From contig JAIUOC010000005.1 of the NCBI GenBank assembly GCA_020161265.1, forward strand, positions 186,001 to 250,000: a stretch of 64,000 nt of DNA. Direction: 5' to 3'. Positions 7,000-55,742 of this stretch are shown here, piece by piece. Source of the stretch: Chloroflexota bacterium. GTDB taxonomy: Bacteria > Chloroflexota > Chloroflexia > Chloroflexales > Herpetosiphonaceae. Each line of letters opens with the position of its first letter. The stretch's first letter is position 1. Under the pieces are notes generated by a model. That model saw only the letters and a program-made list of their open reading frames with translations, made no database searches and was not told where the DNA came from. The translations under genes and the position numbers were made by a program.

Positions 7000-8898
7000 T
7001 TAGCGTTGGGTAACGCTAACATTATCCACAGCAGCTTCTACCAAGCTAGCAGTGCTGGCATCGGAAGCCTCGATCAAGATTCGCACCGATTGGCCAGCAT
7101 AGCTGTTTAAGCTCACAGTAGCGGCTGTCCAAGCAGCATCAACATCGGTTGCGCTGCCCAATTTTTCAAAGACTTTGACCGTGCCTGAGCTGGTGACGAG
7201 CGATACGCGGAAGTAATCGGCGCTACTTGCATTCGAGCCATGAGCCAAGTAGTAGCTGAAACTCAAGCTCAAATTACCAGAACTTGGCAAGGTGAAGGCT
7301 GGCGAACGGACTGACGACGCTCCACCATCAAGGTCGTATGCTCCAGCTGAGCTACCAGCCAAACGGCCCGTTACAAGGTTGTTGCTGCCGCTGACCGTCG
7401 TGCCAAGCTGCTTGGCTCCGCTGCTATCGGTTGCTTCAGGGTCGCCACGTTCCCATGCGCCGGTGGTTGCCGTATCAGTCGCATTGGGATTGGTTGTCCA
7501 ACCTTGGTTGGTTTCAAAATCATCGCTAAATACGGTGACGACTGGGTTTGGTGTGGCGGTTGGGCCTGGGGTTGCCGTTGGTGCAGGCGTAGCGGTTGGA
7601 GTTGGTGTTCCACCGCCGCTACAATATTGGGTTTCTTTGCCAATCACGCGATATGGACAATCAGTTTGTTCCAATAAATACAAGACTGATTCACGGTTAC
7701 GAGTGGTTTCACGGCTAATTACTTCGTCAGGTGGGTAGAAACCTGGGCTAGAAGAGCGAGGATACATTTCAAAGGTATAGGCAAAGATCCGATGTACCCC
7801 ATACGCCCAATCTTCGTATGTACCATCAGCTACATACAAATCGCTGGCTTGTTGTGGCGTATAACCATTGCTTGAGGCCATATTGCGGCCAAGCGCGGCC
7901 ATCGCATCATAATCGTCGCGCTGCATATCACTGGGATAGGCATCGTAGGTGTAGCCATATGGCCATAACACCAGCTCACTATAGGTGTGGAAGGAAATCG
8001 AGGTTTTGATTTGTTGTTTGCCGCCAACCACCCGACTTGCGACAAAATTGCGAATAGCTTGGGTTTCGGGAGCAGTAAAGGCCGCCGTGCCCCGATAGGT
8101 ATCGCTTGAGGTGGAACCACTTGAGCCACCACAGCAGCCCCATTTGTAGCTATAGTTGCGGTTAAGGTCGATGCCAACGTAGGAAGAGCCGCTGTTGGGT
8201 TGGCGATTTTTGCGCCAGCTACGATAGCTGCCACTGGCTACGTCATATTCGCTGCCATCAGGGTTCAAGCTAAAGACGATGTAGATTTCGCGGCTATTGA
8301 CGATATTGGTAATTCGATTGTCAATGCCATAGTTATCGACCAGCAAATGCAACAGATACAGGGTCATTTCAACCGTCAAGTGTTCGCGGGCATGGTGTTG
8401 GCCAATGAACAAGGCTTCTGGCTCGTTCTCATCGGTTGCAACATTATCGCTAATTTTAACTGCGATCAAATCACGGTTTTCATACGAGCGGCCAATGCTA
8501 AAGCGGCTCACAATGCTCGGCTTGCTGGCAACAACTGCCGCAATGTTGCTGGTCATCTCAGCATAATTGTGGTAGGCCGAATCTGCGCCTGGAAAATCGG
8601 TCAATTCAGGGAGTTCGACCAATTTAAAGCCTAAGCGCTCAATCGCCGCAGCTTCTTCGGCATTGGCGGTAACATCCAATACCTTACCATGAACGGCATC
8701 AATCGAAGCACCAGTTGCGGCAATCGCATTGCGATCTTCGCGCGTGGTCACGCCTTCAATATGATAGGCCCGCGATTGATCAAGCGGCTCCGTTTGCTGA
8801 ACTGGCTGCCGCGTTTGCCCTAAAGCACTCAGCGGAGCCATCAGCCCTACGGCTAATGCGAGTGAACCAACCAACCGAACGATGCGTGACGGCTTCAT
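7000..8898 (-). CDS. Secreted M14 zinc carboxypeptidase with C-terminal beta-sandwich domain
   Basis: An exported metallopeptidase of about 632 residues. The ATG at 8898 has AGGAGGG before it and opens a signal peptide ([21 protein letters not shown]). Residues about 45-95 form a propeptide-like segment. The M14 domain shows the zinc motif HHAREH (His169 and Glu172), [25 protein letters not shown] (third zinc ligand in FHTYSE) and YTFEMYP, which carries the catalytic Glu. [14 protein letters not shown]-type linker joins a C-terminal MAM/immune-inhibitor-A-like beta-sandwich ([11 protein letters not shown]...VDNVSVTQR). Family knowledge suggests digestion of external protein, fitting a predatory or saprophytic lifestyle. 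The upstream in-frame start at 9039 lacks a ribosome-binding site and a signal peptide. Confidence 0.93.
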
Positions 8899-9090
8899 GA
8901 ACCCTCCTGTAGAGATAGGGATTGCACCAACCACACGAACAACCTTGTTCGCTCGATAGTGTCCAAATGCCACTAATTCGACACAGGTGGCGTTGTCACT
9001 TGCTAGTGGTGTCGCTTGATGGTTTGGGGTGGATAGCAAATATGTTAAATGATCTTAATAAAATTGTCAAAAAAGTATTAATAGGCGAAG
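8899..9090. other. Upstream region of the M14 peptidase gene
   Basis: Contains the peptidase promoter region, although I could not pick a convincing -35/-10 pair. The end towards 9090 is AT-rich. With the adjoining repeat (9091-9394) it makes a 480-base stretch without a gene. Confidence 0.4.
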
Positions 9091-9394
9091 AGAACAAAGA
9101 GCAAAGAACATAGGAGTTGGGGATCGAAAATTAATTAACGCAGAGGCGCAAAGCGTTGAATGGCGATATATGGGCTGAGGGCTAGCGGAACATGGGGTGA
9201 AATTCAGGCGATTTGTAATTCAAAGGGGATTTTTTTAGCATAGAAGTGTAGCGCATAAATGGCTATGGGCTGTAGGCTATTGGCTATTGGATCATTCAAG
9301 ACCCACATGTCAATAGCCTACTCATCCTTCGTGCGCTTCGTGTCCTTCGTGGATCAAAATCTATGTTCTATGTTCTATGCTCTATGTTCTTTCT
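9091..9394. repeat. Modular inverted repeat element, copy 1
   Basis: The left end carries AGAACAAAGAGCAAAGAACA and the right end the reverse-complement word family (CTATGTTCTATGCTCTATG). Between them lie GGGGATCG, TTAACGCAGAGGCGCAAAGC, GGCTATTGGCTATTGG with a later inverted CAATAGCC, and TTCGTGTCCTTCGTGGAT. The same words recur at 11.9, 39.3, 40.8, 48.3, 50.6, 52.7 and 54.8 kb. The right end overlaps the last codons and the TAG stop of the GH2 gene at 9382. Confidence 0.75.
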
Positions 9395-11853
9395 TGATCC
9401 CAATGTAGCCACTTGATGTCAATTGGCTGTTGGCCTAAGCCATACGCTTGAATTCGTTGCGGTTGGTTGGGCAACAGATCAAGCAGATTATCGCTCCAAT
9501 TGATTTCAGCCGCAGTTTGTAGCCAAACCCCTTTGGCCGGGCGTTGACTGCTGATTTCTAGCCAATCGTCGGCAAGTCGGGTGACGCTAATTTGCGGATC
9601 ATAGGCTGGGAGATATTTGAATGGCTCGGGCCATGCGCTGGCTCTCGCCACAACCACTCCATCAATCAAGACTTGCATGCCAACCACGCTTTGTTCGGTC
9701 AAGTCTAGGTTGAGGCTGGAAATCGGGTTGGCTTGATTGGCAGCTAATTCACATTCAATGGTTTGCTCAAAAAGTAATCTGCCTTGCAAATCGTAGCCAG
9801 TTAATTGAATCGTTGCCAGTTTTGATTCAATTGTGCCATTGACCACCCAAGCCTCGATTGTTGCGCCATTGCGCTGTAATCCAGCGCTGATTGGTGCTAG
9901 CTCGCGGCCAATGCTATAGATGGCGGGTTTCTTGCGCAAGGCCGAATCGATAATGGCCCAACTAATCACTGGCCAACAATCGTTAAGTTGCCAAACTAAA
10001 GCTCCTGCCACTGCATAGCGGCCTGCGCCGCCCCAACGTCGTCGCCAGCCGCGATAGGCTGCCGCCAAAGCCTCGGCCTGCATCAATTGCGTGGCATACA
10101 CATACGATTCGAGGGTGTTTTCAAAGCGCAAGGTATCGTTGAGATACACCGCCAAACGGCGTGCGCCACCCTCCGATTTGTTGTGGTGCTCGACCGTGCG
10201 GCTTTGGGGATAGCGCTCATGCTCAGGAATGACGCTCAGCAAGGTTGGCAACGCTGCACATGATTCCATTCCAAACTCGCTGACAAAACGCCCTTCGTAT
10301 TTAGGATAATCTTGGTAGGGAGCCATCGTGCTATGCCAAACATCCCAGGTATGGCGGTCGCCACGGGTTTTATCATAGACATCGGCTCCGCCATACGGGC
10401 TGCCAGGCCAATAAATTGTGGTCGGATCGTAATTGGCACAGACTTTGGGCAACAAGCGTTCGTAAATTTCGCGGGCTGGAAAGCTGGTTTTGGTGAAATC
10501 GCCCTGAAAACTATGATCATAAGCTTTGAAAGTTTGGGCAATTTGGTAATCTTCGTTGTTGCCACACCACAGCACAATCGAGGGATGATGGCGCAAGCGC
10601 TGAACTTGGGCAATTGCCTCGGCCTCAACGCTGGCCAAAAATGCTGGATGAGCGGGATACATGCCGCAGGCAAACATAAAATCTTGCCAAACCAATAAAC
10701 CTAGCTGATCGCAAAGATCGTAAAAATGATCAACTTCGTAGATTCCGCCGCCCCAAATCCGAATCATCAACATATGGCTATCAACCGCTGCCTGCAACAA
10801 GCGGCGATAGTGCTCGTTGCTTACACGATTGGTCAGCAGATCGGCGGGAATCCAATTGGCTCCGCCGCTAAACATTGGCACATTGTTAATTTCAAACAAA
10901 AATGTTTCGCCTGTTTCATCGAGCAATGGCTCTTGCACCAAGCGCACACGCCGCACGCCAAGCTGTAATTCTTTTTGATCGAGCACCGTTTGCCCAGTAA
11001 AGACCTTGACTGCCAAGCGATAGCGATGTTGTTGACCATAGCCATGTGGCCACCATAAGTTTGGCTGATCAAGCGTGATTGAATGTTGGACATTGCCAGC
11101 AACAACCAATTGTTGTTCTTCAGCGATTAACTCGCCTGCTGGATTCCATAATTGAATCAGCACCGCAGTATCGGCTTGCGCATCCGCAACGGTTGCAGTT
11201 ACAGCAAAAACCGCCGTGCTACAATCATCAGCTACGCTGATTGGACAAGCCAGATCGCTCAAACGAGTTGCGCCCAATTCAAGGGTGATGGGCAGCCACG
11301 GACCAGCCGTCAACAGGGCTGGACCCCAATCCCAGCCATAATGATATTGGGCTTTGCGCAGATACAAACGGCTGGGATCGCCGTTCCACACCCCGAGTTG
11401 GCCCATTTTGGCTTGCAAGGCATGGCCATGCTTTAACGCCGAGCGAAATTCGATCAGCAATTGATTTGCGCCAACGTGGATTTGGTTACTGACCACTACT
11501 CGTTGCGGCACAAACATATTGTCGCTGTTTAATACTTCTTGACCATTAAGCCAAACCGTGGCGATCGTATCCAAGCCTGCGAAGTGCAAGGCGGCTGGTT
11601 GGTTGGCTTGCTCAGCGGTTAATTCAAAATCACAACGATAGAGCCAATCGACCTCAGCTACCCATTGCACCGCCAGCTCATTCAAGCCATCGAAGGGATC
11701 GGGAATGCGCTCGGCGGCGATCAAGGCTTCGTAAATTGTTCCAGGCACAGGCGCTGCCATCCAGCCTTCGCTACTCGTACTATCAGCGAACACAGTGCGT
11801 TGTGGATCACGTTGTTTGGCCTGCCATGCCTGCTGCAATGCGAGCTTTTGCAT
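9382..11853 (-). CDS. GH2 beta-mannosidase
   Basis: A glycoside hydrolase family 2 beta-mannosidase (823 residues, normal length) that releases mannose from the non-reducing end of manno-oligosaccharides. Seen: an N-terminal sugar-binding sandwich (VPGTIYEALIAAERIPDPF...YRCDFEL), HYGWDWGPAL, an immunoglobulin-like middle, then a TIM barrel with IRIWGGGIYE, the acid/base motif WCGNNED near residue 430 and the nucleophile motif VSEFGMES near 526. No signal peptide is present, so it is presumably cytoplasmic and acts on imported oligosaccharides. It is the last gene of the mannan locus. Oddity: its final residues (QERT-stop) are encoded by the AAGAACATAG end word of a dispersed repeat. Confidence 0.93.
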   Translation of the reverse strand: MQKLALQQAWQAKQRDPQRTVFADSTSSEGWMAAPVPGTIYEALIAAERIPDPFDGLNELAVQWVAEVDWLYRCDFELTAEQANQPAALHFAGLDTIATVWLNGQEVLNSDNMFVPQRVVVSNQIHVGANQLLIEFRSALKHGHALQAKMGQLGVWNGDPSRLYLRKAQYHYGWDWGPALLTAGPWLPITLELGATRLSDLACPISVADDCSTAVFAVTATVADAQADTAVLIQLWNPAGELIAEEQQLVVAGNVQHSITLDQPNLWWPHGYGQQHRYRLAVKVFTGQTVLDQKELQLGVRRVRLVQEPLLDETGETFLFEINNVPMFSGGANWIPADLLTNRVSNEHYRRLLQAAVDSHMLMIRIWGGGIYEVDHFYDLCDQLGLLVWQDFMFACGMYPAHPAFLASVEAEAIAQVQRLRHHPSIVLWCGNNEDYQIAQTFKAYDHSFQGDFTKTSFPAREIYERLLPKVCANYDPTTIYWPGSPYGGADVYDKTRGDRHTWDVWHSTMAPYQDYPKYEGRFVSEFGMESCAALPTLLSVIPEHERYPQSRTVEHHNKSEGGARRLAVYLNDTLRFENTLESYVYATQLMQAEALAAAYRGWRRRWGGAGRYAVAGALVWQLNDCWPVISWAIIDSALRKKPAIYSIGRELAPISAGLQRNGATIEAWVVNGTIESKLATIQLTGYDLQGRLLFEQTIECELAANQANPISSLNLDLTEQSVVGMQVLIDGVVVARASAWPEPFKYLPAYDPQISVTRLADDWLEISSQRPAKGVWLQTAAEINWSDNLLDLLPNQPQRIQAYGLGQQPIDIKWLHWDQERT

Positions 11854-39257: not shown

Positions 39258-39415
39258 GAGAACATAGAGCAAAGAACAGAGGGCTTGGGGACTGGTCGTT
39301 GGGGACTGGGGATCGGAAATAAAGCTACAGGATGCATGATGCGAGATAAAATGGATAGTTCGGGCAATTCGTGGCTAAAACAGCCTTTGTGCTCTTCGTG
39401 TCCTTCGTGGATTAA
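39258..39415. repeat. Modular repeat element, copy 3
   Basis: Left: GAGAACATAGAGCAAAGAAC. Middle: GGGGACTGGTCGTTGGGGAC then GGGGATCGG. Right: GGGCAATTCGTGGCTAAAAC followed by TTCGTGTCCTTCGTGGATTA. The word order matches copy 1 with its middle shortened. It lies between acs and hemW, which are divergent, so it occupies the shared upstream region (318 bases without a gene). Confidence 0.7.
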
Positions 39416-40754: not shown

Positions 40755-40935
40755 GAGGGATCAGTTTTCAGGGGTCAGGGATCAGTTTTTTGATCCACGA
40801 AGGACACGAAGGGCACGAAGTAAGGCTATTGGCTATAGACAATTGGCACAATGGTTGGTATTGCAATCCAATCTTTGCTAGCCAAAAGCCTATAGCCCAA
40901 TCGTTTCATCCCTCCTAATTTATCCTTCATCCTTA
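40755..40935. repeat. Modular inverted repeat element, copy 4
   Basis: Starts five bases after the hemW stop. GAGGGATCAG, AGGGGTCAGGGATCAG, then GATCCACGAAGGACACGAAG (the reverse complement of the TTCGTGTCCTTCGTGGAT word), TAAGGCTATTGGCTATAGAC, and in the right half the inverted AAGCCTATAGCCCAAT and CATCCCTCC/ATCCTTCATCC words. It ends just before the cobalamin operon promoter. Confidence 0.72.
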
Positions 40936-40976: not shown

Positions 40977-40998
40977 CGCGACTGCAATTTACAAGTTT

Positions 40999-41119
40999 GT
41001 TTGTGGTGCGTTGCTGTCCCGGATGACACACACGCGCAATGGGGGAAGCCAGTTAGAGTCTGGCGCTGTCCCGCAACGGTAGGAAGCCCACGCTTCAAGC
41101 CCGATAACCCGCCACAAAC
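40999..41119 (+). promoter_or_regulatory. Cobalamin (adenosylcobalamin-type) riboswitch
   Basis: All class hallmarks are present in order: P1 (GTTTGTGG at 40999 with CCACAAAC at 41112), GGTGCG, AATGGGGGAAGCC, TCTGGCGCTGTCCCGCAACGG and the B12 box region AGCCCGATAACCCGCC. Known members bind a B12 form and shut off the downstream B12 genes. Here cobO-cobN and probably the whole cobalamin block follow. Confidence 0.95.
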
Positions 41120-41194
41120 TCATCGACACTCCAACATTTCCCTCGCGGATCAGGGAAGGAGTTGCTAGACCCTGCTGGGTTTAGTGCCTCTTTT

Positions 41195-52138: not shown

Positions 52139-53310
52139 TGCAGCAGCCAATTCATGGGGCAATTGATTATGCTGAATTGCAGCAACGTGGGCTTGTAGCC
52201 AGCCAAATCGACGATTTCAGTAGCAACGTCAATCCGCTTGGCACGCCGAGTTTTATTCGCGAAGCGCTGGCAACTGTTGATTTGGCGCATTACCCCGATC
52301 GTCAATCGTTGGCCTTGCGGGCGGCGCTGGCCAAACGCCATGGTTGTGAACCTGAACAGCTATTGATTGGTAATGGCAGCAATGAGTTAATTCATCTGAT
52401 TGCGCGGGCCTTGTTGCAACCGAATGATCCGGTTTTGCTGATTGAGCCAACTTTTGGCGAATATGCCTATGCTAGTAGTTTGGCTGGCGCTCGATTGTTG
52501 CGCTATCAAGCAACTGCCGAAACTGGTTTTGCAATTGATCTTGGGGCTTGTTGTCATTTGATCAAGCAACATCGCCCACGCTTGGTTTGGCTGTGCAATC
52601 CCAATAATCCCACTGGCAGCTATTTGGATGCTGAAGCGATTGCCCAACTTCAAGCAGCGTGTACCGCAGTTCAAGCCTATTTGGTGCTCGATTTGGCATA
52701 TGCTGATTTAGGGGTCAGGGGACAGGGGTTAGGAGTTAGGAATCAGGAGTCTAAGTATATCCGAATCTTAACTGAAGAAGATCAATTTAGGGGTCTAGGT
52801 GTTAGAGAACAAGGGGCGAAATATTATGAGTATCAACCCTCTGACCTCTTGACCCTAGCCCCTGACCCCTACACGATTTACCTCTACTCGCTGACCAAAA
52901 GCTATGCCTTGGCGGGGTTGCGCTTGGGCTATGTGGTGGCTGAGCAAGCGGTTATCGCTAGTTTGCAGCGTTGGCAGCCGCAATGGAGCGTCAATAGTTT
53001 GGCTCAGGCCGCCGGCCTAGCGATTTGCCAAAATCCGCATTGGCTAGCCCAACAGCTTGAGCAATGGTGGATTTGGAGCGAACAATTACGCCAAGGCTTG
53101 CGCCAACTCGGCTTGAAGGTCTTGCCAAGTTGCTTGCCATTTTTCTTAGTTGAAGTGACCAACGCTCAGCAAACTCGCAGTGCTTTGCTGGCTCATGCTT
53201 GTTTGGTGCGCGATTGTAGCTCGTTTGGCTTGCCGCAGTTTGTACGGATCGCCCCGCGTCAACCAGCCGCAAATCAACACTTGCTGAATGCTTGGAGAAG
53301 TTTATGCTAG
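52138..53310 (+). CDS. cobD: Threonine-phosphate decarboxylase CobD-like PLP enzyme carrying a translated repeat insertion
   Basis: A class I/II aminotransferase-fold enzyme expected to make aminopropanol phosphate for CbiB. 390 residues. Seen: [77 protein letters not shown], then PLP Lys254 in [16 protein letters not shown]. HisC is the close alternative; cobU/cobQ neighbours favour CobD. Oddity: residues about 191-245 are encoded by a copy of the dispersed repeat (52710-52870). The Ala of AY to Lys distance is 67 residues, about 40 more than I recall for HisC-type enzymes. The frame stays open, so it may be a functional enzyme with a large loop, or inactive. Confidence 0.88.
52710..52870. 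repeat. Modular inverted repeat element, copy 7, inside cobD
   Basis: 161 bases bounded by perfect 12-bp inverted ends AGGGGTCAGGGG (52710-52721) and CCCCTGACCCCT (52859-52870). Further G-rich words (GACAGGGGTTAGGAGTTAGG) lie on the left and C-rich ones (CCCTCTGACCTCTTGACCC) on the right. GATTTA occurs at 52705-52710 and again at 52875-52880 and may be a target duplication. It has no transposase. The length is not a multiple of three, so removing it exactly would not restore the cobD frame. Confidence 0.8.
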
Positions 53311-54761
53311 CCCCAGTTTTGATGGTCGTTGGAACCGCCTCGTCGGTTGGTAAAAGCACCTTGGTTAGTGCGCTTTGCCGAATCGCCGCCCGCCGTGGCA
53401 TTCGCGTTGCACCCTTCAAAGCCCAAAATATGAGCAATAACGCCGCTGTTACTGCCAACGGCGAAGAAATTGCCCGTAGTATTGCAGTCCAAGCAGCGGC
53501 AGCTAAACTCACACCCAGCGTGCAGATGAACCCAATTTTGATCAAGCCTGAAGGCCAACGCCGGAGCCAAATTATTGTGCAAGGCCGACCGTGGCGCACG
53601 CTTGAGGCAATCGATTATTGGCAACGTAAACAGATGCTCTGGGAAATTGTTGCCAACAGCCTCGATCAGTTACGCCAAACATATGATTTGGTGATAGCTG
53701 AGGGCGCTGGCAGCCCAGTTGAATTGAATCTTAAAGCTCACGATATTACCAATATGCGCGTGGCAACCTATGCTCAAGCCCAAACGTTGTTGGTCGGCGA
53801 TATTGACGTTGGCGGGATTTTCGCGGCGATGTTGGGCACATTGATGCTATTAGAGCCAGAGGAACGTCAATTAATCGCTGGCTTAATTGTCAATCGGTTT
53901 CGTGGCGACCCCGACTTATTTACTGATGGGATTCAAATTCTCGAACAACGCAGCAACAAACCAGTCTTAGGGGTTGTGCCATGGCTGCCGCAACTTGGCT
54001 TGCCCGAAGAAGATGCGGTTGCTTTGGAACGACCTGATCAAACAACCAACAATGCATCCCTGACGATTGGGGTGATTCAACTACCAGCGATCGCCAACTT
54101 CGACGATTTTGATCCCTTGGCCCAAGAGCAGGGAGTGGCAGTGCGCTATATCAACCAGCCGCATGAATTACAGCATTGCCAAGCGCTGATTTTGCCAGGC
54201 ACAAAGCACACGTTGGCTGCGCGGCAGTGGTTAACTGAGCATGGCTTCGATCGGGCAATTCAACAATTTCAAGGGCCAATTGTCGGCATTTGTGGCGGCT
54301 ATCAGTTGCTCGGCCAGCAAATTGATGATCCAGAGGCGGTTGAAGGCACTGGCGGTAGCATGGCAGGCTTAGGTTTATTACCAACCACCACGATCTTTCA
54401 GCGCCACAAGCAAACGCGCCAAGTTCAGGCGCTCAGCCATTTGCCATGGGCCAAAACTTACCCACTAACTGGCTATGAAATTCATATGGGGCGAACTGAG
54501 CTGTTGGCTGATCAACCAGCATTTAGCATTGAACAAGCTGAATCAACCCATGCTGATGGCTGTATGCGGGCTGATGGCAAGGTTTGGGGCTGTTATATTC
54601 ATGGTATTTTTGCTAATACCGAGTTTCGCCAAGCTTGGCTGAGTAGCCTTGGTTGGCAGGTTCAGCCTTCAATTCAACCAATCGATCCTTTCGAGCGGCT
54701 CGCCGACCATGTAGAAGCTTGTTTGGAGCCGAATTTATTAGCAAAATTACTGGGAACTTAA
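53304..54761 (+). CDS. cobQ: Cobyric acid synthase
   Basis: A glutamine-dependent amidotransferase that amidates adenosylcobyrinic a,c-diamide at four side chains. 485 residues from ATG 53304, which overlaps the cobD stop and has GGAGAAG upstream. N-terminal ATP domain: [65 protein letters not shown]-terminal glutaminase: [10 protein letters not shown] (nucleophile Cys330) and GCYIHGIF (His433), with [10 protein letters not shown] between them. It is a complete enzyme of normal length and the last plus-strand gene of the cobalamin block. Confidence 0.96.
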
Positions 54762-54765
54762 GCCT

Positions 54766-54952
54766 AAGAACATAGAGCACGAATGGCTATAGACTTTTGG
54801 CTATGGGAACAGGAATTAAACAAATTTAGGTTAATCAGCCTTTGCGATCTTCGCATGCTTGGCGGTTTTAACCTTCGTGCCCTTCATTGCCCAAAATCTG
54901 ACCCCTAGCCCCTGAAACCTGATCCCTATGCTCTATGTTCTTTGCTCTATGC
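54766..54952. repeat. Modular inverted repeat element, copy 8
   Basis: AAGAACATAGAGCAC on the left and its reverse complement family ATGCTCTATGTTCTTTGCTC on the right end. In between: GGCTATAGACTTTTGGCTAT, TTCGCATGCTTGGCGG, TTCGTGCCCTTC, and CTGACCCCTAGCCCCTGA. It lies between convergent cobQ and the ECF gene, and includes the last eight codons and the stop of the ECF gene. Confidence 0.75.
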
Positions 54953-55742
54953 TCTGATCAGTTTGCCAATTGAGCCGTAACTGAAACCGCCGCAAGACTG
55001 CCAGAATTGGCTTGCCAAAGGCCATAATCAGCAAAACATTGAATAAGGCTCGTGTGGCATCCCAACCAAGCGAAGTTAGCAGATAAAAGGCCCAATAGCG
55101 TTCTAAGGTTGGGCCAAGCCCCAAACCTGGTTGCCAGGAAATTGCGCTTTCACCAGCGCTAAATGGCCAAAATGTCAGGTTCATCAAGCCGCCGAAGAGC
55201 AAGCCCCAAACCCAGCCAAATATTGCTAGCATGACGACTTCACCCCAACCAGCATCGGCCAATTTCAACCAGCGTTTGAGCGGCAGCAACAAGGCGGTGC
55301 TTAATCCCAACCAGCCCATTGCCAACATCTGAAACGGCATCCATGGGCCAATGCCTGCCACCAACAAGGCCGAAACTGCTAAACTCAGGCTGCCTAGTAA
55401 AAATCCAAAGCGCCCACCATACACAAAACCCGTCAAAATGACCAAAAAGAAAAAGGTTGGGCTATCACCCGGGCCAGCAGGCAATCGTAGCACTGCATTG
55501 ATCGCCACCAACATGCCCAAGGCTGCCACCACCCGTGAGTTCATCGCATGCGTATTCAGATCCGCCAGAATAATCCCAAGCAATAATGGCCCGAGCAACA
55601 ACATAATCAAAGGCGCATCGGCAGCATGATTATCGCCCGCCTGAACTTCGCTTAGAAAAAATGGATAAAAAAAGGCAACCAGCCCGATCAGACTGGTTAC
55701 CCCAACTAACACACGACTAGCAAATGGTGTGGCTCGGTTCAT
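54933..55742 (-). CDS. ECF transporter S component (possible corrinoid/cobalt-related substrate binder)
   Basis: An integral membrane protein of 269 residues with about six helices. The pattern LNTHAMNSRVVAALGMLVAINAVLRL, FFFLVILTGFVYGGRFGFLLGSLSLAVSALL and ALFNVLLIMAFGKPIL matches the S components of energy-coupling-factor importers. Next to cobalamin genes, a CbrT-like vitamin B12 role is attractive, but the substrate is not proven. The A and T components are not in the window; a shared module elsewhere would be needed. The stop of rluD overlaps its ATG as ATGA. The last residues (DQSIEQRT) and the stop come from a repeat end. Confidence 0.82.
   Translation of the reverse strand: MNRATPFASRVLVGVTSLIGLVAFFYPFFLSEVQAGDNHAADAPLIMLLLGPLLLGIILADLNTHAMNSRVVAALGMLVAINAVLRLPAGPGDSPTFFFLVILTGFVYGGRFGFLLGSLSLAVSALLVAGIGPWMPFQMLAMGWLGLSTALLLPLKRWLKLADAGWGEVVMLAIFGWVWGLLFGGLMNLTFWPFSAGESAISWQPGLGLGPTLERYWAFYLLTSLGWDATRALFNVLLIMAFGKPILAVLRRFQLRLNWQTDQSIEQRT

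Follow-up and report, generated by a model that had tools for sequence, protein, structure and literature searches.

The STRR heptamers of filamentous cyanobacteria are short tandem 7-nt units in intergenic space, and the REP/BIME elements that occur with RAYT transposases are intergenic inverted-repeat mosaics, often located past stop codons. Three published cases resemble the arrangement described here. In marine Beggiatoaceae, the TAACTGA heptanucleotide repeats are mostly intergenic and stop all three frames in one direction; that report also gives 13 sets that overlap the stop codon of the upstream gene and says that the repeats fit only at gene ends (MacGregor 2015, PMC4679880). In Xanthomonas and Nostoc, heptamers of the GGGAATC and GGGGA(C/T)T types downstream of genes lie mostly 0–50 bp from the stop codon on the coding strand, some of them overlapping it (Rehm 2015, PMC4692102). 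In Erwinia carotovora, an ERIC / RU-1 element is fused to the 3′ end of an amidase gene, where the normal stop is eliminated and the C terminus is supplied by the element (Delihas 2007, PMC2759123).

We analysed a stretch of 64,000 nucleotides (the window) from a genome of the genus Herpetosiphon (6.04 Mb in 13 contigs; G000), in which a GH2 beta-mannosidase gene ends inside an array of AGARCAW heptamers. We found array-coded stop codons, turnover of the protein tails among six species, and a bias of the arrays in both position and orientation. Like the STRR heptamers, the Herpetosiphon arrays consist of short tandem 7-nt intergenic units. Unlike REP/BIME, they are not linked to Y1 (RAYT-type) transposases, none of which was found in G002 or G005, both among the array-richest genomes; RAYT-driven spread was rejected, since the presence of a Y1 transposase does not match the presence of arrays. 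With the TAACTGA repeats they share the 7-nt unit length, the mostly intergenic location, the all-frame stop and the overlap with stop codons. However, the unit differs, the TAACTGA sets mostly point at a downstream start codon whereas the Herpetosiphon arrays point at an upstream stop, and an inverted-repeat composite as found here is not described for TAACTGA in the accessible part of the source (PMC4679880). The Xanthomonas and Nostoc heptamers are likewise 7-nt units near stops, and units resembling GGGGATT/GGGGACT are part of the Herpetosiphon elements too, but the published units are G-rich, quadruplex-forming and stop-less, whereas AGARCAT carries a TAG and supplies the stop (PMC4692102). 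As in the Erwinia ERIC / RU-1 case, an intergenic repeat gives a gene its C terminus; the 127-bp ERIC / RU-1 element, however, has an open frame and adds dozens of residues, while the Herpetosiphon array stops within about seven codons (PMC2759123). The kind of event is thus already known, because heptamers overlapping stops and an ERIC eliminating a stop have been published (PMC4679880, PMC4692102, PMC2759123). In the open-access literature we found no match for heptameric repeats with Chloroflexi and no mention of intergenic repeats in Herpetosiphon, including word finds in genome papers. As far as this literature shows, the turnover of C termini across the genus and the comparison with stop-less arrays are new.

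The array-coded end of the beta-mannosidase gene

The beta-mannosidase gene (9382–11853, minus strand) encodes 823 amino acids and matches four families above the Pfam cut-off (Glyco_hydro_2_N2, Glyco_hydro_2, Mannosidase_ig and Ig_mannosidase); the last domain ends at residue 804, ahead of the array-coded tail. The protein terminates in KWLHWDQERT, with the DNA reading gat caa gaa AGA ACA TAG. The final two codons and the stop (9382–9390, minus strand; in-frame TAG at 9382–9384) lie in a heptamer array, AGAACATAGAGCATAGAACATAGAACATAG, whose AGARCAW units run in the sense direction of the gene (9361–9390, minus strand). The first-pass annotation had read the residues QERT and the TAG from a single word forming the end of a repeat, AAGAACATAG (9382–9391, minus strand). 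This word is real and was correctly placed: it occurs four times in the window against 0.07 expected, and 106 times genome-wide against 2 for the reversed control. The end of the repeat is, however, the whole array (AGARCAW)n at 9361–9390 rather than one word, and 'QERT' was an overstatement because what AAGAACATAG contributes is limited to R, T, the stop and the last base of the E codon; Q and E are encoded upstream, outside recognisable units.

We compared this C terminus with those of orthologues in five other Herpetosiphon genomes, including H. aurantiacus (six species in all). The five congeneric mannosidases show 86–96% protein identity, and all of them stop inside an AGARCAW array with different tails (ART, QRA, QEQRA, NREHRA and NESIEHRA). 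In each of the five, homology stops at WLHWDQ and an array-type tail follows. Across the six species the tail depends on the phase and length of the array. The best order-level homologues (about 50% identity) have no array at the aligned position and end there in RWLGME, RWLGMM or RWLGMEG. No orthologue with the same end residues but without the repeat was found among the five congeners and the order-level homologues, and a plasmid search with the mannosidase gene gave no match. As judged from the sequences, only a few native residues, about 0–4, can have been lost. An empty site, that is, an array-free mannosidase, was not found within the genus (array in 6/6 species). Because every congener carries the array, its arrival predates the genus and leaves no empty site to compare. 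It had been proposed that an insertion landed at the 3′ end of the gene and replaced the native terminus. The array does supply the end and sits at the native end position, and replacement of the native end by the array is plausible; a single insertion event at this gene is less likely.

In G021, which belongs to another family of the order, a different short-unit repeat (GTTTCAAGTACCAAGTTTCAAGTTCC...) begins directly after the TAG stop of a beta-mannosidase homologue (L050), which may mean that short-unit repeats close to stops are widespread in the order.

Composite elements and the position of arrays at stop codons

The mannosidase array is one end of a composite inverted-repeat intergenic element, an imperfect palindrome of roughly 300 nt (9091–9390; fold z −4.8). 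A facing heptamer array forms its other end (9091–9113, plus strand), and a CACGAAGGA-type module within it (9327–9359, minus strand) has related copies near 39385 and 40788. In general, AGARCAW arrays are the inward-facing ends of such elements, with 14 inward pairs and no outward pair. The modules between the paired arrays are GGGGATC-like, CACGAAGGA, GCGCAGAG and GGCTATN. Because the arrays face inward, a gene entering from either side meets a sense array. Ten convergent gene pairs include three at which the element extends to both stops, either slightly overlapping them or ending no more than 5 nt away. The idea that the arms of one element are copies of each other was not supported, as likeness within elements is no higher than between them. 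No Rfam family was detected in the element, and the window as a whole gave one Rfam hit, a cobalamin riboswitch (40987–41130), which lies just after another stretch of CACGAAG module (40788–40820). A further two-unit array in the window (39259–39274, plus strand) lies away from any gene end.

A second palindromic element of about 150–180 nt, with the ends TGTAATGGTTYAT...ATRAACCATTACA, is abundant in G001 and G003; in G000 the form that was searched for is absent. It often lies inside AGAACAT arrays (7/8 in one set, 9/20 in another) and usually beside a TAG/CTA word (L223, L244, L259, L337–L356). At the mannosidase locus of G003 (L065:9194–9368), it splits the array behind the mannosidase.

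We then examined the position of arrays relative to genes in 566 kb of loci from the source genome, most of them chosen by the AAGAACATAG word, with gene ends called by a home-made program. These loci contain 99 arrays with two or more units; in the whole genome the two-unit pattern, comprising tandem 7-nt units in several sequence variants at many intergenic sites, has 379 matches against 0 for the reversed pattern. The nearest gene feature is a sense 3′ end for 45 of the 99 arrays, 39 of which lie −23 to +18 nt from the stop. When arrays are placed at random within the same intergenic space, 8.8 sense arrays are expected within −25 to +20 nt of a stop (sd 2.7, maximum 19, 2000 trials), against the 39/99 observed. 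For antisense arrays near stops, 8.8 are expected and none was observed. Many arrays start 0–18 nt past an intact native stop.

Read in the sense direction, repeats of AGARCAT (with TAG) or GGATGAR (with TGA) leave no frame open. Since the AGARCAT unit carries a TAG and 7 is not a multiple of 3, at least three units stop every frame. A complete in-frame stop lies inside the array in 11/99 cases, at the offsets −9 or −23 that this three-frame rule predicts; one further array overlaps the stop by two bases, and in several the overlap is limited to the final A of a TAA. The second case in the window is an ECF transporter substrate-binding gene (54933–55742, minus strand), whose last six residues, SIEQRT, and stop are read from an array at 54926–54955 (minus strand). 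A single facing unit word, AAGAACATAG (54766–54775, plus strand), lies 4 nt past the stop of the convergent gene at 53292–54761. Beyond these two, array-coded stops were found in genes for an ABC transporter, a GH3 enzyme, a DUF2520 protein, a luciferase-like monooxygenase, a member of the competence-protein family, a glycosyltransferase, an aminotransferase, a class II tRNA synthetase with an editing domain (ProRS-like) and an NFACT (RqcH-like) protein.

G021 and G048 represent other families within the order. Nearly all of their three-unit arrays consist of AGAACAA, a unit with no stop in any frame. These arrays also lie just past stops in the sense direction (median +8.5 nt among those within −25 to +20). 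None of the 54 stop-less arrays reaches at least 2 nt into a gene, against 12/99 in the source genome (Fisher p 0.004), a comparison that is suggestive rather than firm because the G021 and G048 gene models were trained on few loci. As the stop-less arrays keep the positional bias, a stop in the unit explains entry only, not proximity. This suggests that proximity to stops is a property of the element, whereas entry into a gene needs a unit with its own stop. Among 151 genomes sampled across the phylum (a sample without G021 and G048), the three-unit array was found in this genus only. The two-unit pattern is also present in G021, G024 and G048 and the three-unit one in G021 and G048; the array pattern is present in a few genomes of the order and absent from the sampled other genera of the family.

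Turnover of protein tails among six species

We compared the 3′ ends of 12 further genes with those of their orthologues in the five congeners and found tails exchanged at one position. At the mannosidase and 12 further loci, the number of units at one site differs between close relatives among the six species. The ECF gene ends in SIEQRT in the source genome and in SLEHRT in G003. The luciferase-like gene (L095) ends in RREGQ[AV]RT in four species and in RREPAPTGQ in two; its array differs between G000 and G001, yet the rest of the downstream element can be aligned. Since the remainder of an element can be orthologous, the changes at such genes were gain, loss or rewriting of the array within an element already in place, not the arrival of a whole element together with its array. 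The competence-protein gene (L100) ends in ENIEQRT in two species and elsewhere in HEEREGREVRI (from a CACGAAG module), GQESGV (from a GGGTCAGGAGTC module), MKDEG (from GGATGAA heptamers) or NIEHRS. The ABC-transporter gene (L022) ends in GVRA in the source genome and in K[ND]E[LG], KYEG or KE elsewhere; its ancestral end is uncertain because the tails in the other species also resemble GGATGAR units.

GGATGAR is a second stop-bearing, tail-coding heptamer, which gives ends such as MKDEG, KYEG and KDEG in orthologues of L100, L103, L030 and L022 (G002, G004 and G005). A further gene in G002 and G004 (L070:9859–10365 and L074:7155–7661) ends in ASAKNIEQ inside an array, at offset −17.

Possible origins of the array-coded ends

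We consider it likely that the mannosidase end derives from the outer, stop-bearing array of an abutting composite element, and that such arrays keep rewriting the predicted tails of their neighbours. The last two residues and the stop of the mannosidase would then be the outer heptamer array of the element that abuts the coding end. A gene that loses its own stop, or that is overrun by an array, would end immediately with a short tail, predicted to be R[TA], E[HQ]R[TA] or [SN]IE[HQ]R[TA]. As the arrays stop all frames, they would therefore be tolerated at 3′ ends, and we infer that tolerance, not benefit, is the reason arrays enter genes. Unit gain, unit loss and phase shift would repeatedly rewrite the last 2–8 residues of neighbouring proteins, with slippage as the probable cause of the gain and loss.

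Only slightly short of an even chance, in our judgement, is a course of stop loss and drift, in which the array first lay 0–20 nt past the native stop and a mutation of that stop then let the reading frame run on to the first TAG in frame within the array. The many arrays that still begin within 18 nt of an intact stop are consistent with this course, as is the gene at L026, whose orthologues in G003 and G005 still end a few codons ahead of the stop position in G000 and G001. Some tails, however, begin right where the array does and retain no spacer codons. Loss of the stop is compatible with the abutting-array explanation and, at the mannosidase, inseparable from direct overrun.

It is rather unlikely that, in the ancestor of the genus, a mobile element of the ERIC or MITE kind inserted in one step into the final mannosidase codons and replaced the native terminus. 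The array begins at the expected native end, the elements bear inward-facing terminal arrays, and there is a precedent in Erwinia carotovora, where ERIC took the place of a gene's stop codon (PMC2759123). Neither a clean empty site nor a target duplication was found among the loci compared, however, and at L095 the remaining element aligns between G000 and G001 although their arrays are different. Furthermore, the two arms of an element resemble each other no more than they resemble the arms of other elements, so there is no sign of a fixed terminal repeat.

Somewhat less likely again is that a task at the mRNA 3′ end, as a terminator or a REP-like stabilising hairpin, selects elements right after stops, the coded tail being a by-product. 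The sharp bias in position and orientation agrees with such a task, as do the filling of the space between convergent genes and the strong folds predicted for 13/14 paired elements (z between −3.6 and −7.8). On the other hand, the intrinsic-terminator pattern (a GC-rich stem followed by a T run) is absent at both elements in the window (54600–55100 and 8890–9450), arrays have been gained and lost between close species, and most genes have no such element. We regard it as very improbable that a dedicated Herpetosiphon process writes arrays just past stops and that tails are actively and repeatedly swapped among fixed repeat-coded endings. TAG-rich intergenic sequence of any kind ends some reading frames, but a stop codon falling within the repeat by mere chance can be dismissed, given 39 arrays near stops where 8.8 are expected, never in antisense, and an arrangement shared by all six species at the mannosidase.

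The abutting-array explanation offers a testable rule on the entry of repeats into genes: units that stop all frames enter, and stop-less units do not. In Herpetosiphon annotations, tails such as -RT, -EHRA, -SIEQRT and -KDEG are repeat-coded and should not be taken as conserved motifs or signals. Through array-read ends at the mannosidase and about ten other genes, protein ends differ from species to species, and the C-terminal ends that differ between close species include those of the ProRS-like tRNA synthetase and the RqcH-like NFACT protein.
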